From the NCBI GenBank assembly GCA_949287095.1, contig CASEFA010000001.1:1-64000 (forward strand): a DNA stretch of 64,000 nt, in the 5' to 3' direction. The position numbers and the translations under genes are program-made. Source of the DNA: an uncultured Bacillota bacterium. Its GTDB lineage: Bacteria > Bacillota > Clostridia > Peptostreptococcales > Anaerovoracaceae. This document shows, in pieces, positions 29,291 to 41,639 of this stretch. The number at the start of each line of letters is the position of its first letter. The stretch's first letter is position 1. Below the pieces are notes generated by a model. The model was not told the DNA's origin and searched no databases. It worked only from the letters and a program-made list of their open reading frames with translations.

Positions 29291-32125
29291 ATGCCCGGTG
29301 AAATAGTCATAAAAGGAGCCAACGAAAACAACCTTAAACACATAGACGTGAGGATTCCCAGAGATAAGCTGGTGGTTCTCACGGGACTTTCGGGAAGCGG
29401 CAAGTCTTCCCTCGCTTTTGATACCATATACGCGGAAGGCCAGCGAAGGTACGTGGAGAGTCTTTCCTCCTACGCACGCCAGTTCCTGGGGCAGATGGAC
29501 AAGCCCGACGTGGAGTCCATCGACGGCCTTTCTCCCGCCATATCCATAGACCAGAAGACCACCAGTAAAAATCCGCGTTCCACCGTGGGCACGGTTACGG
29601 AAATCCACGACTACCTCAGGCTTCTGTTTGCCAGAATAGGCCACCCTCACTGCCCTGTCTGCGGCAGACCCATAACGAGCCAGTCCGTGGATCAGATGGT
29701 GGACACCATAATGGAATATCCAGAAGGAACGAAACTGATGGTCATGGCGCCCGTCGTCCGCCAGAGAAAGGGCGAACACGAGAAAATCCTCGAGAGAATC
29801 AGGAAGGAAGGATTTACCAGAGTCAGAGTCAACGGGGAGATAAAGCTTGTCAATGAAGACGAAATCAAGCTTGACAAAAAGTTCAAGCACACTATAGAAA
29901 TTGTCGTGGACAGGATCGTAGTAAAGTCTGGCCAGGAGGGCCGCATTTCCGAAGCCGTGGAACTTGCCATGAAGCAGGGAGACGGCCTCGTTACGGTGCA
30001 GTTTATGGGCGGCGAGCAGCCAAATGCCGAAAAAGTCTTTTCCACTAAGCTGGCCTGCCCCGAGCACGGCATCAGCATAGAGGAACTGGAACCGAGAATG
30101 TTCTCCTTCAACAGCCCCTTCGGCGCGTGTCCGACGTGTAACGGCCTCGGATTCACACAGAAGATAGAGCCGGATAAGATTGTAAAAACAGAGCTTAGCG
30201 TACTCGACGGCGCTCTGGGAACTATTTTTGCGTCCATGGAGTACACCGGATACTACCGTCAGATAATAGAGGTTCTGGCGAAGGAATACGGCGCCGACCT
30301 TTCGCTGCCGTTTAAAGACCTTCCGGAAAAGCTGCAGCACGATATCCTGTACGGCACCGGAAACCGGCATCTTAAATACGATTACAAGAGCAGATCCACG
30401 GGCAGAGTCACCCACATGGACCATACCTTTGAGGGCATGATAAACAATCTGGAGCGCCGCTACCGGGAGACCAGCTCAGAATTTATGAAGGAGAAGATTC
30501 AGAGCTATATGTCGACCAAAATCTGCCCGGACTGTCACGGACTCAGGCTGAAGCCGGAGGTTCTTGCCGTGACCGTGGGCGGAAAGAACATCGCCGAAAT
30601 TTCGGAAATGTCCATAAGGGACTGCTACGGCTTTATGGATTCTTTAAAGCTCAGCGAGAAAGAGCAGCTCATCGGAGCGCAGATTATTAAGGAGATTAAG
30701 GAACGTCTGGGCTTTCTCATCAACGTGGGTCTGGACTACCTGACCCTGTCAAGGTCCGCAGGCTCCCTCTCCGGAGGCGAATCCCAGCGTATCAGGCTGG
30801 CGTCCCAGATAGGCTCCGGCCTCATGGGAGTTCTCTATATTTTGGACGAGCCCAGCATCGGCCTACACCAGAGAGACAACGAGAAGCTTTTAGACACTCT
30901 GCGTCACCTTACCGACCTGGGCAACACCCTTCTGGTGGTGGAGCACGACGAAGACACCATGTACGCCGCAGACCACATAATCGATATCGGTCCCGCTGCG
31001 GGAATATACGGCGGCGAGCTGGTGGCTCAGGGCACCGTCGACGACATCAAAGCGGAGCCCCGCTCCATAACGGGCCAGTACCTTTCAGGTGCCAGAAAAA
31101 TCGAAGTTCCGAAAGTCCGCCGGGAAGGAAACGGACAGTTTATAACTGTCAAAGGCGCCCGCGAAAATAACCTGAAGAACATCGATGTGGACATTCCTTT
31201 AGGCAAATTCGTATGCGTCACGGGAGTTTCCGGCTCCGGCAAAAGCAGCCTCATCAACGAGATTCTCTACAAAGGCTCCGCCCGGGTCATAAACAGGCTC
31301 CAGGAGGACGCCGGAGATCACGACGAAATCCTCGGTCTTGAGAATATCGACAAGGTCATAGACATAGACCAGTCCCCTATCGGCAGAACCCCGAGGTCGA
31401 ACCCGGCCACCTACACCGGCATGTTCACCCACATCAGAGATCTGTTCGCATCTCTTCCCGAATCGAAGATACGCGGTTTTGAAAAGGGCCGCTTCAGCTT
31501 CAACGTAAAGGGCGGACGCTGCGAGGCCTGCAAGGGCGACGGAATAATAAAGATAGAGATGCACTTCCTGCCTGACGTTTACGTTCCCTGCGAAGTATGC
31601 AAGGGCAAAAGGTATAACAGGGAGACCCTGGAGGTAAAGTACAAAGGCAAGAGCATTTTCGACGTTCTGGATATGAGCGTTGCCGAGGCTCTGGACTTTT
31701 TCGGCAACCTGCCGTCCATAAAGCGCCAGCTGGATACCCTGAACGAAGTGGGCCTTGACTATATCAAACTGGGACAACCGTCAACTCAGCTTTCCGGCGG
31801 CGAAGCCCAGCGTGTGAAGCTTGCCACCGAACTGTCCAAGCGAAGCACCGGCAGGACTCTTTACATTCTCGACGAGCCTACCACCGGCCTTCACTTTGCC
31901 GACGTGGACAAGCTCATCGCAGTTCTCCAGAAGCTCACCGACGCGGGAAACACCGTAGTAGTCATAGAGCATAACCTTGACGTAATAAAATGCGCCGACT
32001 ACATCATCGACCTGGGGCCTGAGGGCGGCGACAAAGGCGGCACGATCATCGCAACCGGCACCCCGGAGGATATAGCCGCCTGCGAAAAGTCGTACACGGG
32101 GCAGTTTTTGAAGAAGATGCTGTAG
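29291..32125 (+). CDS. uvrA: Excinuclease ABC subunit A
   Basis: UvrA (944 residues) is the ABC-type ATPase dimer that finds bulky DNA lesions and loads UvrB. Two nucleotide-binding domains are visible: GLSGSGKSS near residue 31 with [11 protein letters not shown], and GVSGSGKSS near residue 640 with [11 protein letters not shown]. Zinc modules are CPVC...CPDCHG in the first half and CEACKGDG...CEVCKGKRY in the second. The ATG at 29291 with AGAGG upstream is chosen over the in-frame ATG at 29246 because the protein normally begins close to [12 protein letters not shown]. Co-directional with uvrB and probably co-transcribed. Confidence 0.97.
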
Positions 32126-32231
32126 GATTAGATTTGAAAGGCTGCATCAGCGCGGAGACTTTGACAAATACCGCTTAAAACCGGAGCTTTGTCAAGGCAT
32201 TGTCAAACCGCTGCAATAGAACGCACTTTTG
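32126..32231. other. Non-coding stretch rich in TTGTCA/TGACAA after uvrA
   Basis: No gene is seen. TTTGACAAA, TTTGTCAA, TTGTCAAA and TTGTCAAA occur within 90 nt on alternating strands, continuing the motif that fills the following repeats. No clear uvrA terminator is visible. Confidence 0.5.
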
Positions 32232-32442
32232 TCAAAACGGAAGGAGGCGGTGACAAACAGATGAATTTGCCGCTATTATGTCACCTTTGTCACCATAGAT
32301 GAGCATATAGGGCGCAGTGCGGTGACACATTCCGAAAAATACGGCTTAGCTGTCACCATTTTACGGAAAAAACTGCTGAAAACGGGGCAATGCGCAGGCT
32401 GCGGTGACAAAAGTGGAGACAAATATCATATCTGTCACCAAT
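32232..32442. repeat. 211-bp direct repeat, copy 1
   Basis: Nearly identical to 32549-32759. It contains three successive inverted pairs GGTGACA...TGTCACC (32249/32279, 32321/32351, 32403/32433; first base of each) plus an extra TGTCACC at 32288. Three consecutive hairpins or six protein-binding half-sites are possible readings. No coding potential is convincing. Confidence 0.85.
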
Positions 32443-32474
32443 TTAGATGAGAAATTGCCTGACGGCAGATTTAG

Positions 32475-32533
32475 TTTACAAAGGTCAAGGTTTGGAGGCG
32501 ATATAGTCTCGAAAACCTTGACCTTTTTGTAAA
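32475..32533. repeat. 19-bp inverted repeat between the two 211-bp copies
   Basis: TTTACAAAGGTCAAGGTTT (32475-32493) is matched in inverted orientation by 32513-32533, with two extra T in the second arm. The arms could form a long hairpin with a 19-nt loop and end in a T-rich stretch on the plus strand, so terminator activity is possible. Confidence 0.7.
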
Positions 32534-32548
32534 TTCCAAGCGCCTTTC

Positions 32549-32759
32549 TCAAAACGGAAGGAGGCGGTGACAAACAGATGAATTTTCTGCTATTATGTCA
32601 CCATAGTCACCATAGATGAGCATATAGGGCGCAGTGCGGTGACATATTCCGAAAAATACGGCTTAGCTGTCACCATTTTGTAGGAAAATCTGCTGAAAGC
32701 AGGGCTATGCGCAGGCTGCGGTGACAAAAGTGGAGACAAATATCATATCTGTCACCAAT
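32549..32759. repeat. 211-bp direct repeat, copy 2
   Basis: Same length as copy 1 with scattered substitutions (for example TTTGTCACC replaced by ATAGTCACC near 32607). The three GGTGACA/TGTCACC pairs are preserved. Its right part supplies the last codons of the short frame at 32705-32899. Confidence 0.85.
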
Positions 32760-32899
32760 AAGGCATCTGCCATTGCAATATCGGTGAGCGTCCGATTTTG
32801 CAATAACGGTTTTATAGCTAAAACCCGTGAAATCAAGGCTTTAGCGATAGCCGCCCATCCGGCCAGTGCAGCGAAGGATTCAATGAAAATCAGCCCCAT
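32705..32899 (-). CDS. Short hydrophobic open frame running into repeat copy 2
   Basis: A 64-residue frame whose ATG overlaps the winged-helix gene's stop (TAATG). The first 48 residues are hydrophobic and Ala/Leu-rich (MGLIFIESFAALAGWAAIAK...) and could form one membrane helix. From LVTDMIFVSTF onward the codons come from the 211-bp repeat. It looks like a gene whose 3' end was replaced by the repeat. Not recognised. Confidence 0.35.
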   Translation of the reverse strand: MGLIFIESFAALAGWAAIAKALISRVLAIKPLLQNRTLTDIAMADALLVTDMIFVSTFVTAACA

Positions 32900-33201
32900 T
32901 ATTTCAACCTGTACTTCCTGTCCGGTCCTCTTCCCATGACCTCTATGATTCCTCTATCCCTCATTTCTTTTGCCAGCACATATGCCCGTGTTTTCTTAAC
33001 ACGCAGAAACTCCTGCAGTTCGTCTCCGGTCATTTCCCCATGCAGCTTGAGATACTCCGCCACCCTTTTCATCTGCTCCGTTACTCTCACCGGTTCAGCG
33101 CTGTACGTAAGCGCGGTTTCTTTTACGAAACTCTCCCCTGCATTCATATTGGGCAGCAAATGAAGATCCGGTGAAAATTCATTATTTAAGTGAATTTTCA
33201 C
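32899..33201 (-). CDS. Small winged-helix DNA-binding protein (fragment-like)
   Basis: A 100-residue frame. Residues 37-100 (RVTEQMKRVAEYLKLHGEMTGDELQEFL...GRGPDRKYRLK) match the winged helix found at the C-terminus of AlbA/RecG-like and Fic-type regulators. The usual large N-terminal domain is missing, so this is either a shortened remnant or a small repressor in its own right. The apparent GTG start at 33201 lies inside a 16-bp palindrome and next to a TATAAT. A start at an internal ATG (near residue 19) is possible. The palindrome may be its own operator. Confidence 0.5.
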   Translation of the reverse strand: MKIHLNNEFSPDLHLLPNMNAGESFVKETALTYSAEPVRVTEQMKRVAEYLKLHGEMTGDELQEFLRVKKTRAYVLAKEMRDRGIIEVMGRGPDRKYRLK

Positions 33202-33258: not shown

Positions 33259-34965
33259 TTAACTCTTTTCAAGCTCAGCTTCTTTTTCCAGATCTTCTAT
33301 CTTTGTACTCTTTCCTACGAAACGTACTATAGCAATCAGCACAACAATTCCCAAAGGTATTGATATTATTGGAGATATTCCGGCTGCGGCTGGTATAAAT
33401 CCAACAACTGCTGCAACTCCTGCCACGGTTGCTGCATAAGGTATCTGCGTTCTTGCATGATCCATTAAGTCTGCGGCAGATCCCATTGCCGACATAATCG
33501 TAGTATCTGATATTGGCGAACAATGGTCTCCGAAAATCGCTCCACTTGTTACCGCTGCGATTGTAACGATACACAGGCTGTCCATCTCTCCGCCTGTTGC
33601 ACCCCACGCCAGAGGAAAAGCAATCGGTATCATTATTGCGCTTGTTCCATAGGATGTACCTGTCGAAAACGCTACTACACAAGATACAAGGAATAAAATA
33701 ACCGGTATTAAAATTGCAGGTATTGCTCCTCCTACAAGATGTGATATATAATTTCCGGTTCCCAGGTTCTCCATAATCGTTCCCGACCCCCAGGCCAGAA
33801 CCAGTATTGTGTCTGTAAGAAGCAACTCTTTACATCCGTTCAGCCATACGTCTATGCACTCTTTAAGGCCCATTATTCCCTGAATCATGGACATAATGAT
33901 GAGAAGAATAGATGTGATTATTACTGCATAAAGAATGCTTGATGCAGCATCCGCATTACCCAGGGCATTCTGAAGTCCCCTGAAATTAAACGGTTCCTCT
34001 AAACCGCCACCAGTATACCAGAGTCCTACGATTGTAACAATTGTGAACACCAGAATCGGCACTATGGCATTTCTCATTCTGAGAGGCGCACCTTCTTTAA
34101 CATTCATCGCATCAAGTTCTTTACTCATCATCGGCTTTGCCGTGTCTTCATATAATTTTCCAGTGAGACGGGCTCTTTTCTCCGCTTTATACATAGGGCC
34201 GTAGTCTCTCTGCATCGTGACGAGTATGAGCACCATGAATATTGCGAGGATATTATAGAACCTGTAAGGTATCGTCTGCATAAATGTGCTGTACACATTT
34301 CCTTCATATCCTACAGATGTAAATGCAATTGCAATCATGCCTATTTCGTACGCAGTCCACGAAGATATAGGGGCCAGGTCTGTAACCGGACCTGCAGTTG
34401 AGTCAATTACATATGACAGTTTCTCTCTTGATACCCTCTCTCTGTCTGTTGCAGGTCTCATAGTCGGGCCTACGACCAGTGAGTTGGCATAGTCCTCAAA
34501 GAAAATAATCAGTCCCATTACCCATGTAAGGATAAGTGAATTTTTTGCGCTTTTGGCTTTACTTGACATCGCTATGGCCATGGCCTGCATTCCTCCCATT
34601 TTACTCATGAGAGCTATAAGGCCTCCTACTGCAAGGATAAATACCAGCAATGTTGCATTCCATGTATCAGTAACCGTTCCGACAATATATGTATCACATG
34701 TTCTCAGGAAAGCTGTAAATACATTTCCGCCATCCAATATTATTGCTCCTACAAAAATAGCCGTAGCCAGTGACAGTACAACCTGTTTCGTTATAAACGA
34801 CAGAACAATGGCGCAAAACGGTGTCAACAATGACAGAAAACCGTAATGAGCAGCTGCATCTTCTCCCGTTTCACCTTCAGCGAAAACAAAATTTGTCATC
34901 AGGATTAAAGTAACTATAAATGCAATCGCAATTATCCAACGAGTCTTAGAGATATTCTTAATCAT
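33259..34965 (-). CDS. NhaC-family Na+/H+ antiporter-type transporter
   Basis: A 568-residue polytopic membrane protein with about 12 hydrophobic segments. Family marks are GLIIFFEDYANSLVVGPTMRPATDRERVSREKLSYVIDSTAGPVTDLAPISSW in the middle and GAIFGDHCSPISDTTIMSAMG near residue 480. NhaC-like members exchange sodium and protons, and some swap amino-acid-like substrates. In this cluster, uptake or exchange of a guanidino compound or its product is a reasonable guess. ATG at 34965 is preferred over 34983 because AAGGAGGAG lies just before it. It follows the M28 peptidase gene in the sigma-54 operon. Confidence 0.87.
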   Translation of the reverse strand: MIKNISKTRWIIAIAFIVTLILMTNFVFAEGETGEDAAAHYGFLSLLTPFCAIVLSFITKQVVLSLATAIFVGAIILDGGNVFTAFLRTCDTYIVGTVTDTWNATLLVFILAVGGLIALMSKMGGMQAMAIAMSSKAKSAKNSLILTWVMGLIIFFEDYANSLVVGPTMRPATDRERVSREKLSYVIDSTAGPVTDLAPISSWTAYEIGMIAIAFTSVGYEGNVYSTFMQTIPYRFYNILAIFMVLILVTMQRDYGPMYKAEKRARLTGKLYEDTAKPMMSKELDAMNVKEGAPLRMRNAIVPILVFTIVTIVGLWYTGGGLEEPFNFRGLQNALGNADAASSILYAVIITSILLIIMSMIQGIMGLKECIDVWLNGCKELLLTDTILVLAWGSGTIMENLGTGNYISHLVGGAIPAILIPVILFLVSCVVAFSTGTSYGTSAIMIPIAFPLAWGATGGEMDSLCIVTIAAVTSGAIFGDHCSPISDTTIMSAMGSAADLMDHARTQIPYAATVAGVAAVVGFIPAAAGISPIISIPLGIVVLIAIVRFVGKSTKIEDLEKEAELEKS

Positions 34966-34979
34966 TTTCTCCTCCTTTC

Positions 34980-36725
34980 TCATTTCATGGCTTTAATAGC
35001 CATTTTTATCACTTCAATCGAGTCGTTTAAAGCATCATAAACCATGTTGCGTACACGAAGTACCTTAGTTTCCCAAAGATAATGATCATCAGAACCGAGT
35101 GGAGAAGCATTGTACTTATCAACCGTCAGTTTTAACAACGGAATCGGGTTTTCTGTTGCCAATGCGCAGCAGGAGTCCTGTCCATACTTTCCGGAATAGC
35201 ACCTGAACAACGATGTTTTTCTTTCACAATCCAAAACAGCTCTGTTATATTCTCCTATGCTTTCTTTTGAAATATCTGTTTTAATATCGCTGAGCCTGTA
35301 AAGAGATTTGACATACTCCTCGACCTTTGCAGAATACGGTTGCAGCATACCTTCTGCTTTTCCTGCCGAATCGATTATTTCTCTCCACTGTCCTTCTACA
35401 TCATCAGCAAGATCTTTCAGATTGTACGGTACAAAGTCATCATTTATCATTTTCTCCGCTACGTAGAGGAAATACTCGACGTGCTTTTTCATAAGGTTTT
35501 CGTCAACCTTATCCGTTGTATCGTCATCGGTGTGAAGCCAAGGACTATAGAAAGCATAATTCAGTTCTTTCAGCTTATCCTCTGTGTATTCGGTTGCAAA
35601 TGAGCAATACGGTACACCTACGCCGAAAAACGAAGAATCCCCGCCGCCCTTGTATGCGTGATGCCATACGCCGGGCACTCCCCATATTTTCTCAATGGCA
35701 TCGGTCAACAGTTTCTTAAGCTCCGGTTGTCCTTCAACACCCGGTACGGTTGTTCCTTTTATTGCCAGATTGTCTATATTGATATATGCCATGCAGTTGT
35801 CAGTCATATCCTGCCAGTAATTATCACAATACCAGGTCGATCCTCCGCCTTCGGCAATTTCATGTCCGTCCCAGAATGCGAAAACAACATCGCTTTTAAG
35901 TTCTTCTCTATATTTGGAAAAAATTCTTGCCAGCTCCAGATTAAGCGCATTGCCGGACGCATTGCATATAGCAGACTTTCCCCACGCATCTACATGACTT
36001 CCTATCAAAACATATCTGCCGTCGCTCTTTCCCCCATGCAGCTTTCCAATCGGCTGATCTGCAGTTATCCATTCTCTGCTGGCATCAGCTTTAAGCCACA
36101 CTTTTACGCCGCCTTCAGCACATAAAGCGGCAAGCTTTTCACCATTCTTTCTGGAGATACTAATTACAGGTATCCTGACAATTTCCGACACTGCTTCAGG
36201 TGTCGGATTTCCCCACTGCGCTTTTACAGCACCCATTTGTATCAGGTCTTCATCCGACTTACCCCAGTTCATTATGATAAGCGCCCTTGCACCCATTTCC
36301 CATGCTATTCTGGCCTTTTCCGGACGACCCGGACTCCAGTTCATATCAGTGAGCACAATTTTGTCAGAAACATCTATCCCTTCATAGTCTTCGTATCTGC
36401 CAGATCCCAGATACACCATTTCACCCTCTATGCCACTCTCCGGAGTTGACTCTATGTGGCATACCGGTCTTGTCGGAATATCTATCTTTTGGGGAGCGAT
36501 AACTTTAAGTTCGGCTTCACCGGGATAGCTCTGATACATTGGAAAATGGTCAATATATGAATTTTCAATGCCATTCTCTTTTAATCTTTTGCATATATAC
36601 TCAGTAGCTTTAACCATTTCTTTTGTTCCCGAAAGTCTTTCTCCCACCTCTTCAACGAGATATTTCATATCGCCGTATATATTTTCCAGCGATATATCTT
36701 TTACCATTTTTTCGTACATTTCCAT
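34980..36725 (-). CDS. M28-family zinc aminopeptidase with PA insert
   Basis: A 581-residue protein with the M28 pattern of zinc ligands: GSHVDAW (His, Asp), FWDGHEI (catalytic region), the NIDN aspartate and WLHTDDDT (His). A PA-like insert (GMVYLGSGRYEDYEGIDVSDKIVLTDMNW...) precedes the catalytic core. No signal peptide is seen, so it should act in the cytoplasm. It probably releases an amino acid or guanidino amino acid from a peptide or amide conjugate. ATG at 36725 has AAGGTGA 5 nt upstream, which favours it over 36743. Operon order is amidinotransferase-like enzyme, this peptidase, transporter. Confidence 0.88.
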   Translation of the reverse strand: MEMYEKMVKDISLENIYGDMKYLVEEVGERLSGTKEMVKATEYICKRLKENGIENSYIDHFPMYQSYPGEAELKVIAPQKIDIPTRPVCHIESTPESGIEGEMVYLGSGRYEDYEGIDVSDKIVLTDMNWSPGRPEKARIAWEMGARALIIMNWGKSDEDLIQMGAVKAQWGNPTPEAVSEIVRIPVISISRKNGEKLAALCAEGGVKVWLKADASREWITADQPIGKLHGGKSDGRYVLIGSHVDAWGKSAICNASGNALNLELARIFSKYREELKSDVVFAFWDGHEIAEGGGSTWYCDNYWQDMTDNCMAYINIDNLAIKGTTVPGVEGQPELKKLLTDAIEKIWGVPGVWHHAYKGGGDSSFFGVGVPYCSFATEYTEDKLKELNYAFYSPWLHTDDDTTDKVDENLMKKHVEYFLYVAEKMINDDFVPYNLKDLADDVEGQWREIIDSAGKAEGMLQPYSAKVEEYVKSLYRLSDIKTDISKESIGEYNRAVLDCERKTSLFRCYSGKYGQDSCCALATENPIPLLKLTVDKYNASPLGSDDHYLWETKVLRVRNMVYDALNDSIEVIKMAIKAMK

Positions 36726-36763
36726 GAACTCACCTTCTAACATTCAATAAACCGTAAACTGAA

Positions 36764-37705
36764 TTATCCTCTTTTCAGGAATGCGGTACAGCAGTGCATA
36801 GCTCCAAATCCTCGTAATATCTGATCGAATTCTACAGTTATAACTTTTATTCCGTTTTTTTCGAGAAGTTCCTGAGACCGTGGACATCCTGCAGGCATAA
36901 CCACAAGTCCCGGTTCTATAGCCACATAATTTATAGCGAGCTGTTCTTTTGCCTCCACCCTGGAAGGGCATTCGAGAAGTTTTATTCCCTTTTTCTTAAG
37001 AGCGTCACAAACGTCATAAGGCACCTGTGAAGCATGAATCATAGCAACATCGTGAGAAGCCATGTTCAGCAGACCGTCTATATGCGCATGGCCATATGGT
37101 ATCTGCATGTGAAGAACATCTGTCACACCCATTCTCCGTAATTCTGATTCAACCATTTCATACCCTTCGCGGTTCGTTCTTACTCCTGATGCCAGAACCA
37201 CCGTATGCCTGTCAATCCACATCGCCATTGCGCCCTCGAACGTTGCGCTTCCACATATCGTTCGTATTATAGGAACACCAATTTCGCCCAGCTTTCTGGC
37301 TGCATACTTTTCTTCACCTCTTCTGGAGGCCGTGGCAGGTCTGGTTACGATGGCTCCTTCCGGAGTCATAAACACCAGGTCTCTGCAAAAAAGAGCGTTT
37401 GGTCTGTCTTCCGGCGTATCTTCTACATAGTGTACGGTCACTCCATGACTTCTGTATATGTCTGCCAGATTATCATGCTGCTTGCGAAATTTTTCAGGAT
37501 CAATCTCTCCCCTGAATCTCGCAGCCTGCCAGTCAAAGTTTTCAATTTCTTTTCCCGGACGATGCATCAGCACAGCCTTTAGAGTATCAACCTCAGAGCA
37601 CACGCCCCAGTTCCCCCAGATTTCTTTCATATCCTCCTCAATAGAGGTATCCTTCGGAAACCAACGTTCACCGGGTAAAGCATCAATATCTCTTATCTTC
37701 GTCAC
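36764..37705 (-). CDS. Guanidino-group-modifying enzyme (amidinotransferase/DDAH/ADI superfamily), copy A
   Basis: This 313-residue protein has the pentein-fold landmarks. NALFCRDLVFMTPEG is the substrate loop, TFEGAMAMWIDRH holds the acidic pocket, HAHIDGLLNMAS contains the catalytic histidine and MHCCTAF the near-terminal nucleophilic cysteine. Such enzymes hydrolyse or transfer the guanidino group of arginine, methylarginine or agmatine. The exact substrate is not readable, and the pocket motifs do not match classic ArcA. GTG at 37705 is chosen for its AAGGAGGAG. It is first gene of an operon behind a -24/-12 promoter at 37750-37765. It is clearly paralogous to the gene at 39353-40297 and of nearly the same length. 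Confidence 0.87.
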   Translation of the reverse strand: MTKIRDIDALPGERWFPKDTSIEEDMKEIWGNWGVCSEVDTLKAVLMHRPGKEIENFDWQAARFRGEIDPEKFRKQHDNLADIYRSHGVTVHYVEDTPEDRPNALFCRDLVFMTPEGAIVTRPATASRRGEEKYAARKLGEIGVPIIRTICGSATFEGAMAMWIDRHTVVLASGVRTNREGYEMVESELRRMGVTDVLHMQIPYGHAHIDGLLNMASHDVAMIHASQVPYDVCDALKKKGIKLLECPSRVEAKEQLAINYVAIEPGLVVMPAGCPRSQELLEKNGIKVITVEFDQILRGFGAMHCCTAFLKRG

Positions 37706-37749
37706 AGTAGCTCCTCCTTTTCTATTTATAAAATTCTGATATATGCTAT

Positions 37750-37765
37750 TGCAATTATCGAGCCA
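37750..37765 (-). promoter_or_regulatory. Sigma-54 (-24/-12) promoter of the copy A operon
   Basis: Minus strand TGGCTCGATAATTGCA has GG and GC exactly 10 bp apart and the TTGCA -12 box, matching TGGCAC-N5-TTGCA closely. It lies 45 nt before the GTG. Confidence 0.85.
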
Positions 37766-37789
37766 CAACATTTCCCTGCAAATTTCGGT

Positions 37790-37863
37790 TTTCCGGTAAA
37801 AAAATACTGTACCGGTAAAAAACCACTTTACTGATCTGTAAAATGATTTTTTACCGGTACAGT
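37790..37863 (-). promoter_or_regulatory. ACCGGTAAAAAA repeats: terminator of the rocR-like gene and/or activator binding site
   Basis: ACTGTACCGGTAAAAAA (37806-37822) is perfectly inverted at 37847-37863, and a third partial copy TTCCGGTAAAAAAA starts at 37789/37790. On the minus strand the hairpin is followed by ATTTTTTT, a good terminator for the regulator gene ending at 37875. Its centre is also about 70 bp upstream of the -24 box, where enhancer-binding proteins bind. Confidence 0.7.
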
Positions 37864-37874
37864 GAGAATATCTG

Positions 37875-39260
37875 CTACCTTTCTATGCCCAGCTTGTTCA
37901 TCTTATAGTTTAGATTCTGTTTTGTTATACCGAGGAGTTCCGCCGCTTCTACATAGCTGTCTGTCATCTGAAGAGCTCTGGAGATAATCTCCCTCTCATA
38001 ATTCCTCATTGCCTCTTCAAGATTTCCCGGAATTAACATTTCAGTTTCAGTATCTCCCGCAAGCAGATTTCTGCTGTGACTGCCGCTTACGTTCTGTTTT
38101 ATGTAAGCGGGCAAATCACTTGGCTTAATAAACCGCCCCGAAGCAATGTTAAATGCTCCCTCTATAACATTTTTCAGTTCCCGAACGTTTCCCGGCCAGC
38201 TATATGCTCTGAATATACTTTCAGCCTCCTCGACCAGCCCCAGAATCTCCCTTCCCATGAGCTTATTAAATTCCTTTATGAAATGATCCGTAAGATAAAA
38301 GAGATCCTTTTGCCGTTCGCGTAAAGGCGGCACATTGATTTGAACGACGCTCAGTCTGTAAAACAAGTCGCTCCTTATCCTGCCTTCCTCGACACATTTG
38401 ATGGGGTCCTGATTTATTGCAGATACAATCTTTACGTCGGTTTTTATCGGTTCATAACCTCCTAAACGTACTACCTGCTTTTCCTCAATCGCCTTTAGAA
38501 TCTTAGCCTGAACGCTTTTTTCCATAGAGTTTATTTCATCCAGGAACAGCGTTCCTCCATTCGCGATTTCAAACAGTCCCGGTTTATTCTCTGCCCCGGT
38601 ATAGCTTCCCTTTACTGTACCAAAGAGAATACTTTCCAGTAGATTTGCCGGTATCGCCGCACAGTTCTGTGAAATAAATCTTTTGTTCCTGCGTTTACTT
38701 GACGTGTGTATAGATTGTGCAACAAGCTCTTTTCCCGTACCGGTTTCTCCGTATATGAGCACGGACGAGTCCGTATCTGCAATCATCGGAATTCGTTCTT
38801 TAATTATTTCCATCTCTCTGGAAGATGTAATAATGTCATCCACACTGTACAGGTTTCCACTTGTAACATTGTCTTTAATGGAAAGAACAATATCCTGTCG
38901 TTCAAACGGAGAATCAATGTATCTGGATACGTCTACAGCGCCGATTATTTCATCATTCTGTCTTATAGGCAGTGTTGTGTTGATTGCATTGATACTCTGC
39001 CCTTTATATGTTTTAAGAACCTGAAATTCATTGGAAATCGGCCTTCCTGTACTTAATACCCTCATAACACTGCTGGTTTCCTCGGTTAAGCCCGGATACA
39101 CATCGAGTATATGTTTATGCAGTACATCACTTTCTTTGAGTTTATTAAGTTCCGGCCTGAAGTTTTTGTAAAACTCAATATATCCAAATTTATTGGTAAC
39201 GACGATACCGTCAATGTAATTGTAAACATTTAATAGCTGCTCTACATATCTTCTAAGCAT
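37875..39260 (-). CDS. RocR-like sigma-54-dependent transcriptional activator
   Basis: A 461-residue enhancer-binding protein, the same length as B. subtilis RocR. A PAS-like sensor spans about residues 14-117. The AAA+ domain has Walker A GETGTGKE (171-178), GSYTGA (218-223, variant of the GAFTGA loop that contacts sigma-54) and Walker B TLFLDE (237-242). A Fis-type HTH ends the protein (AAELLGITKQNLNYKMNKLG). It should hydrolyse ATP to open sigma-54 promoters when its PAS domain senses a ligand. Both flanking enzyme genes have -24/-12 promoters, so it is almost certainly their activator. Its own promoter is not obvious. Confidence 0.93.
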   Translation of the reverse strand: MLRRYVEQLLNVYNYIDGIVVTNKFGYIEFYKNFRPELNKLKESDVLHKHILDVYPGLTEETSSVMRVLSTGRPISNEFQVLKTYKGQSINAINTTLPIRQNDEIIGAVDVSRYIDSPFERQDIVLSIKDNVTSGNLYSVDDIITSSREMEIIKERIPMIADTDSSVLIYGETGTGKELVAQSIHTSSKRRNKRFISQNCAAIPANLLESILFGTVKGSYTGAENKPGLFEIANGGTLFLDEINSMEKSVQAKILKAIEEKQVVRLGGYEPIKTDVKIVSAINQDPIKCVEEGRIRSDLFYRLSVVQINVPPLRERQKDLFYLTDHFIKEFNKLMGREILGLVEEAESIFRAYSWPGNVRELKNVIEGAFNIASGRFIKPSDLPAYIKQNVSGSHSRNLLAGDTETEMLIPGNLEEAMRNYEREIISRALQMTDSYVEAAELLGITKQNLNYKMNKLGIER

Positions 39261-39352
39261 ACTAAGCCTCCGGTCTGCAGTAATGCAAGTATTTTATCTC
39301 CTGCGCTGCCCTGAAATAAATTTTACTTCATTCTTGCATCCGTGACAAGCTG

Positions 39353-40297
39353 TTAACCTCTCTTCAGATACGCAGTTATGCAGTGCAATGCCCCTTTGCC
39401 CTTGATAATCTCTGAAATATTAACGGTTCTGACCTTAATTCCGTTTTTCTCGAGGAGCTCCTGAGTTCGTGGATTTCCTTCCGGCATAAGAATATATCCC
39501 GGCTCCAGAGCCACAAAATTACATGCAAAAGTTTCACGTACTTCTGTCTGTGATGGTGCCTCAAGGATTTTATATCCCTTTTTCTTCATCATATCAAGAA
39601 TATCATATGGAACCTGTGATGCATGTACCATAACTACATCGTTGCTGGCAGTATTCATCAAGCCGTCAATATGAATATTACTGTACGGCTGCTGCATATG
39701 CCAGACCTCTACACCCATCCTTTCAAGCTCATATTTTACCTGTTCAAATCCTGATCGATTACATCTGACACCTGTTGAAACCACACATGTGTGCCGGTCT
39801 ACCCACATTGCATTCGCGCCTTCGAACATTCCGTTTCCCGATATTGTACGCAGTATAGGAACACCTATTTTTGCCAAAGCTTCAGCGACATATCTTTCTT
39901 CACCACGTCTTGCAGCCATACCCGGTCTTGCCAGAATCGCACCTTCCGGCGTCATAAACACCAGGTCTCTGCAGTAAACTGCATTTGGTCTGTCCTCTCT
40001 CTGATTTTCAACGTAAAATACCTTAACGCCAAATTCTCTGTAAATATCTGCAACCTCATCGTGCTGCCTTCTCATAAGGTCAACGTCTACGGGTTCGTCG
40101 GAAAATCTCACTTCTCTTGCATTAAAATCTTCAATTTCCTTACCGGGTCTCCTCATTAAAACTGCTTTCAAAGTGTCAACTTCCGAGCAAACCCCAAAAT
40201 CACCCCAGTATTCATTCATGTCGTCTTCGAAAAAAGATTCCTTTGGAAACCATCTTTCGCCAGGAATTGCCTCGATATCAAACATTTTCTTATCCAT
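39353..40297 (-). CDS. Guanidino-group-modifying enzyme (amidinotransferase/DDAH/ADI superfamily), copy B
   Basis: A 314-residue paralogue of the copy A enzyme. It shares GERWFPK near the N-terminus, the NAVYCRDLVFMTPEG loop, MFEGANAMWVDRH, NIHIDGLMNTAS (catalytic His) and ALHCITAYLKRG (catalytic Cys). Copy A has HCCT where this copy has HCIT, and YSNIHIDG replaces YGHAHIDG, so the pockets probably differ in substrate. AAGGAGG precedes ATG. It is monocistronic or reads into the regulator gene 92 nt downstream, and it has its own sigma-54 promoter. Confidence 0.87.
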   Translation of the reverse strand: MDKKMFDIEAIPGERWFPKESFFEDDMNEYWGDFGVCSEVDTLKAVLMRRPGKEIEDFNAREVRFSDEPVDVDLMRRQHDEVADIYREFGVKVFYVENQREDRPNAVYCRDLVFMTPEGAILARPGMAARRGEERYVAEALAKIGVPILRTISGNGMFEGANAMWVDRHTCVVSTGVRCNRSGFEQVKYELERMGVEVWHMQQPYSNIHIDGLMNTASNDVVMVHASQVPYDILDMMKKKGYKILEAPSQTEVRETFACNFVALEPGYILMPEGNPRTQELLEKNGIKVRTVNISEIIKGKGALHCITAYLKRG

Positions 40298-40336
40298 ATA
40301 CTCCTACCTCCTTACTTAATGGATAAAAAACTGTGA

Positions 40337-40352
40337 AGCAATTCCCATGCCA
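40337..40352 (-). promoter_or_regulatory. Sigma-54 (-24/-12) promoter of copy B
   Basis: Minus strand TGGCATGGGAATTGCT has GG and GC 10 bp apart, agreeing with TGGCAC-N5-TTGCW. It is 40 nt before the ATG. Confidence 0.85.
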
Positions 40353-40394
40353 ATTTCACCGACCGATACATTCCAGCCTGTATGTTCCGTTCCT

Positions 40395-41639
40395 TCAGTT
40401 CCCCTTCATCATCTCTTTCATCTCTTTCCCGCTCACCTTCCTGGCTCTTCCCGAAGCGACCAGATTCGAGATGACTTCGTCGGCTCTGCCTCCGGTGTAG
40501 TCGCCGGCATTTTCTCTCAGGATGACGATTTCCGGCCCTGCCACGTCATTTAGAACCGTTACGTTTCGCAGGTTGCTCATGCCTATATCCACATCGGCTA
40601 AAACCACTGCGTCCGCACGGCAGGCTGCCGCCAGATTGACTTCGCAGGCTTTGTCCGATACCGGGCTGTACGGTTTTTCCTCCACTATCTCAAGGCCCAG
40701 AGACCTTGCCAGATTGTAGTCGCTGTCGCCGCTTGAGAGTACGCCGCAGCTCACCTGCCAGCCCTGATTGTAAAATCCCTCTATGATCCTGCTTCCGCTG
40801 CCGCCTCCGCAGATAACGTGAACGCGGCGGCCATTCAGCTTCCTCTCCGCTTCTCTGTTGCTTCTGAGCGCCACTATTTCAGGTGATGCGGTTAGGGAAT
40901 TTTCCCTCGTCACCAGATCTATCCTGTAAACCGGCTTCAGCACCTCCTCGCGGATTATCTCGCCTACCGGCCCGTCGGCCGTTTTTTTGCCTCCGTTTAA
41001 CACCACGATTCTGTCGGAAAACCTTGCGGCCATGTTTATGTCGTGAAGGACTGCGAAGATCGTAATTCCCTCTTCCCTGTTCAGCCTTCTCATCAGCTCC
41101 ATTATTTCAAGGGTATACTGGATATCCAGGTGGTTTGTGGGCTCGTCCAGAATCAAAACCTTCGGAGTCTGGGCCAGGGCTGCCGATATGATTATTCTCT
41201 GCCTCTCTCCTCCCGAAAGCTCCGTTATCTTCCGCTCTCTTAAGTGAAGAGTCCCCGTCTGTTCCATGGCCCTGTCGATAATCCTGTAATCCTCTTCGGA
41301 TTCCGACTGAAGCCGTTTCAGATAAGGGTGCCTTCCCATGGCAACTATCTCTTTTGCTCTGAACCCGAAGGACGGAGTGAAATTCTGAGGCACCACCGCT
41401 ACCATTCGCGCTCTTTCCATGTGGGAGAGCCTGTCGTTATCCTTTCCGTCCAGGGTTATGCGCCCCGACTTCAGAGGCACCACCCCCGTCACCGTATGGA
41501 TAAGGGTGGATTTTCCGGACCCGTTAGGCCCTATGAGGGATACGAACTCTCCCTGCCCCACGCTGCACGAGAAATCCTTCAAGATATCCTTTTCTCCGTA
41601 TCCTGCCGTAACGCCGTCAAAAGTCAAAATAGGCTCCAT
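40395..41639 (-). CDS. Metal-chelate/cobalamin ABC transporter ATPase with extra C-terminal domain
   Basis: A 414-residue protein. The first 250 residues are a FecE/BtuD-type ATPase: Walker A GPNGSGKS, signature LSGGERQR, Walker B VLILDEPTNHLD and a switch histidine in VLHDI. A further domain of about 150 residues follows (RRVHVICGGGSGSRIIEGFYNQGW...NLARSLGLEIVEE...NAGDYTGG). It has a Rossmann-like glycine-rich start and no match I can name, and could be a regulatory or nucleotide-binding module. ATG at 41639 has GGAGGTG upstream and overlaps the permease stop by one base, so the two are coupled. Confidence 0.88.
   Translation of the reverse strand: MEPILTFDGVTAGYGEKDILKDFSCSVGQGEFVSLIGPNGSGKSTLIHTVTGVVPLKSGRITLDGKDNDRLSHMERARMVAVVPQNFTPSFGFRAKEIVAMGRHPYLKRLQSESEEDYRIIDRAMEQTGTLHLRERKITELSGGERQRIIISAALAQTPKVLILDEPTNHLDIQYTLEIMELMRRLNREEGITIFAVLHDINMAARFSDRIVVLNGGKKTADGPVGEIIREEVLKPVYRIDLVTRENSLTASPEIVALRSNREAERKLNGRRVHVICGGGSGSRIIEGFYNQGWQVSCGVLSSGDSDYNLARSLGLEIVEEKPYSPVSDKACEVNLAAACRADAVVLADVDIGMSNLRNVTVLNDVAGPEIVILRENAGDYTGGRADEVISNLVASGRARKVSGKEMKEMMKGN

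Follow-up and report, generated by a model that had tools for sequence, protein, structure and literature searches.

A cluster of five genes in the genome of an uncultured gut bacterium of the Anaerovoracaceae, near Ca. Avanaerovorax, has the appearance of a sigma-54-dependent set for a guanidino compound. Two of the genes encode pentein enzymes resembling arginine deiminase (ADI), hereafter penteins A and B, and between them lies the gene for a sigma-54-dependent activator (EBP); a protein similar to M28 peptidases and a transporter of the NhaC superfamily complete the cluster. A preliminary description of this DNA had proposed such a set, and at the level of sequence the proposal is well borne out by conserved promoters, RpoN, the contact loop of the EBP, duplication of the unit, a candidate enhancer and a guanidino pocket that is intact. 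We give about even chances to the reading of the cluster as an inducible catabolic module whose two deiminases have as substrate a guanidino amino acid other than free arginine. A guanidino amino acid is the likely substrate, and ordinary free arginine is probably not, because a complete arc operon in the same genome can handle the latter.

Gene order, promoters and candidate activator sites

All five genes are encoded on the minus strand of the window, as we call the whole 64,000-nucleotide stretch analysed, bounded by an iron-type ABC transporter gene (ending at 40395) and uvrA (ending at 32125), and the NhaC-type and M28-like genes overlap by 4 bp (Table 1). The reading frame of pentein B opens at an ATG at 37771, which is upstream of its own -24 box at 37766, and the true start is therefore very likely the GTG at 37705, ahead of which stands AGGAGG. 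The GC content of the cluster is 42.7%, against 51-55% in the flanking genes, and no pentein above the search threshold was found in two of three genomes of the same genus; the gene set looks acquired. A 100-aa winged-helix-like ORF (32899-33201, minus strand) separates uvrA from the cluster, and at 32180-32770 the window has a direct repeat of about 250 bp in two copies, with GTGACA/TGTCAC palindromes.

Table 1. Features of the cluster; position 1 is the first letter of the window.
Feature	Coordinates	Strand	Basis
NhaC-superfamily transporter, 574 aa	33259..34983	-	Pfam Na_H_antiporter, 179.8 bits
M28-like protein, altered active site, 587 aa	34980..36743	-	Pfam M28 and PA; alignments; fold match to GCPII
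Pentein B, second ADI-type deiminase-like enzyme, 313 aa	36764..37705	-	Pfam ADI, 78.4 bits; predicted structure; clade B
-24/-12 promoter of pentein B, GTGGCTCGATAATTGCA	37750..37766	-	Joint second best sigma-54 site in the window
Inverted repeat containing both candidate sites; terminator-like hairpin with T-run at 3' end of EBP gene	37811..37858	-	z -8.8
Candidate EBP site 2, GTAA-N9-TTAC, 23 bp from site 1	37815..37831		Motif enrichment
Candidate EBP site 1, GTAA-N9-TTAC	37838..37854		Motif enrichment upstream of penteins
EBP, sigma-54-dependent activator, 461 aa	37875..39260	-	Pfam Sigma54_activat, 208.6 bits; HTH_8
Pentein A, ADI-type deiminase-like enzyme, 314 aa	39353..40297	-	Pfam ADI, 71.7 bits; pocket residues; clade A
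-24/-12 promoter of pentein A, TTGGCATGGGAATTGCT	40337..40353	-	Top sigma-54 site in the window

That each pentein gene has a strong -24/-12 promoter was confirmed. In a weighted scan of the 64 kb window, with weights of our own modelled on the published consensus, the site of pentein A ranks first (14.7 of 15.2) and that of pentein B joint second (13.7), at 56 bp and about 61 bp ahead of the respective start codons; shuffled or simulated sequence yields about 2.3 sites of at least 13.2 per 64 kb at any position. The loci of relatives agree: in them, 39.8% of 98 pentein regions have an upstream site scoring at least 13, compared with 3.4% of 774 other genes, most of the high-scoring ones being partner genes within the pentein modules themselves, and 2.1% of 47 EBP genes. 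Within the host genome the scan covered individual stretches, namely the window, the stretch of a second unit described below and other selected loci; all four A- or B-type penteins of the genome are preceded by a site, which is the best or joint second best of its stretch. The genome also encodes RpoN, together with 18 full sigma-54 activator (EBP) domains.

The EBP of the cluster has a Walker A motif (GETGTGK), the sigma-54 contact loop GSYTGA, a variant of GAFTGA, and a Fis-type HTH, and from these motifs and its position it is presumed to be the regulator of the cluster. It had been called RocR-like. An EBP does stand between the penteins, as Pfam confirms, but the resemblance to RocR was not confirmed: its best curated match is the PrdR model, at 328.8 bits far below the cut-off of 795, and no RocR model is among the curated-model matches listed for it. 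It is best described as a member of its own group.

Where would this EBP bind? Among 56 upstream regions, the dyad GTAA-N8-TTAC occurs in 12 (0.2 expected) and TTAC-N6-GTAA in eight (0 expected), and the TGT-N-ACA type of UAS common in Clostridiales is not among the enriched dyads; the UAS motif of OrdR, according to PMC6615313, is also reported to differ from the TGT/ACA type. In 1.26 Mb of sequence there are 52 occurrences of GTAA-N8/9-TTAC, and 28 of these, from 17 loci, fall within 350 bp upstream of penteins, a portion making up 2.7% of the sequence (42-fold enrichment). The copies are mostly in tandem with a spacing of 22-23 bp, and we regard the tandem motif as a candidate EBP site. Both copies in the window lie between the EBP gene and pentein B, upstream of the latter. 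No candidate site was found near promoter A; exact copies are absent before the penteins of the second unit, one of which (pentein D) is preceded by a site with one mismatch.

The stretch of the window that contains both sites is predicted to form a strong terminator-like hairpin, so it may be both enhancer and terminator, or terminator only. That it serves the EBP gene solely as a terminator seems to us the less probable of these, though a serious contender: the two sites in the window pair into one long hairpin with a T-run, and in most loci the candidate sites lie behind the EBP gene. Against this, GTAA and TTAC are conserved while the inner bases vary, most pairs keep a spacing of 22-23 bp, that is, two helical turns, and in loci such as L078 the arms pair poorly with each other. 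In rocG of Bacillus subtilis the RocR site lies 1.5 kb downstream (PMC4941409), which is a precedent for the proposed control of promoter A from about 2.5 kb downstream.

Deiminase-like enzymes and their partners

The predicted structure (AF2) of pentein B (pLDDT 86.4) best matches arginine deiminase (Z 35.1 over 283 residues, 1.9 Å), followed by NnhA and DDAH, and its fold match to ArgZ-type dihydrolases has a Z of 30. The helical domain of ADI is missing from the model, in agreement with a gap of about 90 columns in the alignment with the host ArcA. The two penteins score 67.7 and 72.2 bits with the ArcA equivalog TIGR01078 (cut-off 489.1) and 103.4 and 71.1 bits with the curated DDAH model (cut-off 340). 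The substrate-contacting positions are those of the solved ADI and DDAH structures, some of them taken from PMC11659421. All eight contacts tested against the host ArcA (N105, D111, R130, E159, R178, H209, D211 and C306, in the numbering of pentein A) are in the ADI state, and seven of them are invariant in 92 family members, E159 being Asp in two.

The penteins thus share with ArcA the fold, the catalytic Cys, His and Glu, both guanidino-binding Asp residues, the Asn and the two carboxylate-binding Arg residues. They differ from it in the absence of the helical insert (314 versus 406 aa), in an identity of only 16-25%, in Arg64, which is invariant and stands in the gating loop at a position occupied by Leu in ADI, and in having HIDG for HLDT and EGAN or EGAM for EGGD. 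Along with R64, residues G212 and H305 are invariant in the pentein family only, and W165, N180 and N215 are likewise invariant in it. The two clades differ from each other just before the catalytic His (A/B: S206/G205, N207/H206, I208/A207) and elsewhere beside the pocket (N162/M160, C179/T177, I307/C306, A60/W59, S66/K65). The earlier statement that the pocket differs from that of ArcA is accordingly true of neighbouring positions, while the core pocket is identical. Both enzymes appear capable of removing nitrogen from arginine-like molecules.

A DDAH function is disfavoured. The penteins have the size, the fold (Z 30) and the catalytic residues of DDAH, but Asn replaces its Asp60 at the amine-side position and Asp replaces the Lys two residues after the catalytic His; the host's own DDAH-type proteins have Asp at the N105 position and Lys at the D211 position. 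Methylarginine, one of the substrates suggested initially, is therefore unlikely, since the core pocket resembles that of ArcA rather than that of DDAH and two DDAH-type genes are found elsewhere in the genome. Disfavoured too is the function of NnhA (2-nitroimidazole nitrohydrolase), which shares the fold and the catalytic Cys, His and Glu; its hydrophobic pocket is without the carboxylate-binding Arg pair and one guanidino-binding Asp (PMC11659421), whereas the penteins have both (R130, R178 and D111).

The M28-like protein is modelled (pLDDT 88.7) with the fold of GCPII and the transferrin receptor, including the PA domain of GCPII and M28 peptidases, and H250, E295, D324 and H404 occupy metal-ligand positions. 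In all 14 aligned members His294 replaces the catalytic Glu of the two-metal site (E424 in GCPII, mutants of which are labelled inactive in PDB titles), and in most of them Cys260 takes the place of the bridging Asp. Because the replacements are strictly conserved, they suggest an altered function of the protein and not decay, although it may be inactive. The M28-like and NhaC-type genes of the preliminary description are both confirmed, but the M28-like protein lacks the canonical catalytic Glu, and so the idea that the peptidase frees arginine finds no support. More distant paralogues with His for Glu (loci L150-L158) adjoin genes for an Asp/Glu/hydantoin racemase, an ATC hydrolase, a BiuH-like (biuret-hydrolase-like) hydrolase or an Opp transporter; these neighbours hint at a link to small ureido or cyclic compounds, faintly so for the protein in the window. 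The transporter exceeds the Pfam cut-off for Na_H_antiporter and scores 28.9 bits with the NhaC equivalog TIGR00931 (cut-off 370); it is a member of the NhaC superfamily only.

Related loci and the rest of the host genome

A scan of GTDB genomes gave 79 related loci, many of them in Anaerovoracaceae (Emergencia, Aminicella, Bacilliculturomica, Anaerovorax) and others in Sedimentibacter, Acidaminobacter, Halanaerobiales, Atribacterota and an Olavius symbiont. In a tree, A-type and B-type penteins fall into different supported groups, whose members recur next to each other, close to the EBP gene, across genera. Among the 74 loci with a called pentein, two penteins are present in 27, which tells against reading the set as a paired module, and an EBP lies within 6 kb of a pentein in 42, though contig ends truncate many of the loci. 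The partner modules are M28 with NhaC; an APC transporter with Amidohydro_3 and a PuuE-like deacetylase; SBP-Opp; and TSUP with NhaC. In Acidaminobacter the partners are alanine dehydrogenase, ArgH and an aminotransferase (PRK07324) that resembles capreomycidine synthase. Bacilliculturomica massiliensis has seven family members in one genome (loci L053, L088, L108, L122 and L123), and most of its pentein loci seen have their own EBP nearby.

A second pentein-EBP-pentein unit occupies 157.7-161.5 kb of the same contig, 120 kb from the first. Pentein C, followed by SBP and OppBCDF genes, matches pentein B at 68% identity, the second EBP matches the first at 62%, and the divergent pentein D matches pentein A at 80%; the -24/-12 sites of C and D, scoring 14.0 and 14.2, are the two best in that 20 kb stretch.

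The preliminary description had noted that arcBC are absent, which is true of the window and wrong for the genome: arcC, arcA and OTC genes are complete at 12.0-15.3 kb of contig C8, with 420.2 bits for arcC (cut-off 358.25) and 503.6 bits for arcA (cut-off 489.1). To judge from these genes, free arginine already has a route. The argument for an unusual substrate had leaned partly on that wrong premise; the complete operon elsewhere still indicates a different role for the penteins.

Other parts of the genome are of related interest. A guanidino-rich stretch of contig C5 (L010, 49-65 kb) carries the two DDAH-type genes, a short ADI-like gene (291 aa) and agmatinase-like and YfcC-type antiporter genes, besides genes for M20 hydrolases and for a glycyl radical enzyme and its activase; the scan showed no strong -24/-12 site there. 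At 38-46 kb of C5 (L167), an EBP gene and a -24/-12 site (14.7) precede an operon that comprises a symporter-like gene, genes for two PuuE-like deacetylases, the only argH of the genome and a malic-enzyme-like gene. This argH, beside PuuE-like genes, may be a dedicated catabolic lyase or a biosynthetic gene, and we allow both because it is single-copy. At 94-100 kb of contig C1 (L168), an EBP gene is divergent from a -24/-12 site (14.0), with genes that we named by eye as a DppA-type aminopeptidase, a DmpA-type peptidase, an Asp/Glu racemase and a PuuE-like deacetylase.

Possible substrates and comparison with known regulons

A tentative outline of the process is as follows: in response to an inducing signal, the EBP would bind the tandem GTAA-N9-TTAC sites that lie between the EBP gene and pentein B, and would activate sigma-54 RNA polymerase at the two -24/-12 promoters, the B-M28-NhaC operon being driven from the upstream side and pentein A from downstream, as by RocR at rocG. 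The NhaC-type carrier would transport the guanidino amino acid or its product. Through a Cys-His-Glu thiouronium mechanism, penteins A and B would hydrolyse their substrate at the guanidino carbon, with ammonia and a ureido (citrulline-like) compound as products; their separate lineages and unlike pocket linings could mean that they handle two substrates or catalyse two successive steps. A further or preparatory hydrolysis would fall to the M28-like protein. A conjugated arginine is a possible substrate of the module.

Plain arginine would, however, fit the core pocket, which is the same as that of ArcA. A and B might then be extra short arginine deiminases, or a deiminase with a citrulline-splitting or dihydrolase partner, acting on free L-arginine under sigma-54 control with the NhaC protein as an arginine/ornithine exchanger. 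The fold match to ArgZ-type dihydrolases agrees with this, as does the linkage, in passages of PMC6615313, of sigma-54-controlled nhaC of Clostridiales to arginine/ornithine transport. We consider it a less probable explanation, though one of real weight, as arcCAB is complete in the same genome, the penteins score far below the arcA cut-off, the family has R64 where ADI has Leu, A and B differ beside the pocket, and partner hydrolases would be superfluous for free arginine. Modified or cyclic arginines (argininosuccinate, carboxyethyl-arginine or the glycation product MG-H1), opened or trimmed by partner hydrolases before penteins split the guanidino carbon, are brought to mind by those relatives that swap M28 and NhaC for PuuE-like (cyclic ureide type) and Amidohydro_3 enzymes, or add alanine dehydrogenase, ArgH or the capreomycidine-synthase-like aminotransferase. 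The 64 kb window, however, contains none of these partners, the guanidino-flanking Asp of ADI is kept and leaves little room for N-substituents, ArgH is single-copy here and may be biosynthetic, and the PuuE-like HpPgdA was inactive on every substrate tried, so the PuuE-like class leaves the reaction unfixed. The literature search lent no support either, giving nothing direct on bacterial MG-H1 breakdown, on Emergencia and arginine or on pentein regulons, and we find this alternative improbable. Equally long odds attach to its broader form, in which paired penteins with swappable hydrolases make up an undescribed pathway family of gut and sediment anaerobes that degrades modified or cyclic arginines, such as dietary glycation products, and not arginine, in two successive pentein steps.

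Returning to the module for a guanidino amino acid other than free arginine, it would be a coherent sigma-54 regulon built around a deiminase family that lacks the helical domain and reaches seven copies in one genome. The locus offers two enzymes, a candidate enhancer and an assayable substrate question, and it brings to light an M28-like subfamily with His for the catalytic Glu. If the substrate were a diet-derived arginine derivative, the locus would equip gut bacteria to degrade a class of compounds whose breakdown by bacteria has been little described. No description of this regulon was found in the literature searched, which included the main text of a reconstruction from 57 Clostridiales genomes.

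The nearest known systems share parts of this arrangement. The RocR/sigma-L arginine regulon of B. subtilis likewise has an EBP, several -24/-12 promoters in the same direction and one intergenic enhancer possibly acting both ways (PMC4941409), as proposed here; its targets are rocABC, rocDEF and rocG, whereas those of the present cluster would be penteins, the M28-like protein and the NhaC-type transporter. The OrdR and AguQ sigma-54 regulons of Clostridiales also serve amino acid or guanidino catabolism, and the OrdR operon has nhaC; as far as passages of PMC6615313 describe them, however, their targets are ornithine genes or the agmatine genes aguABCD, not paired ADI-type penteins.
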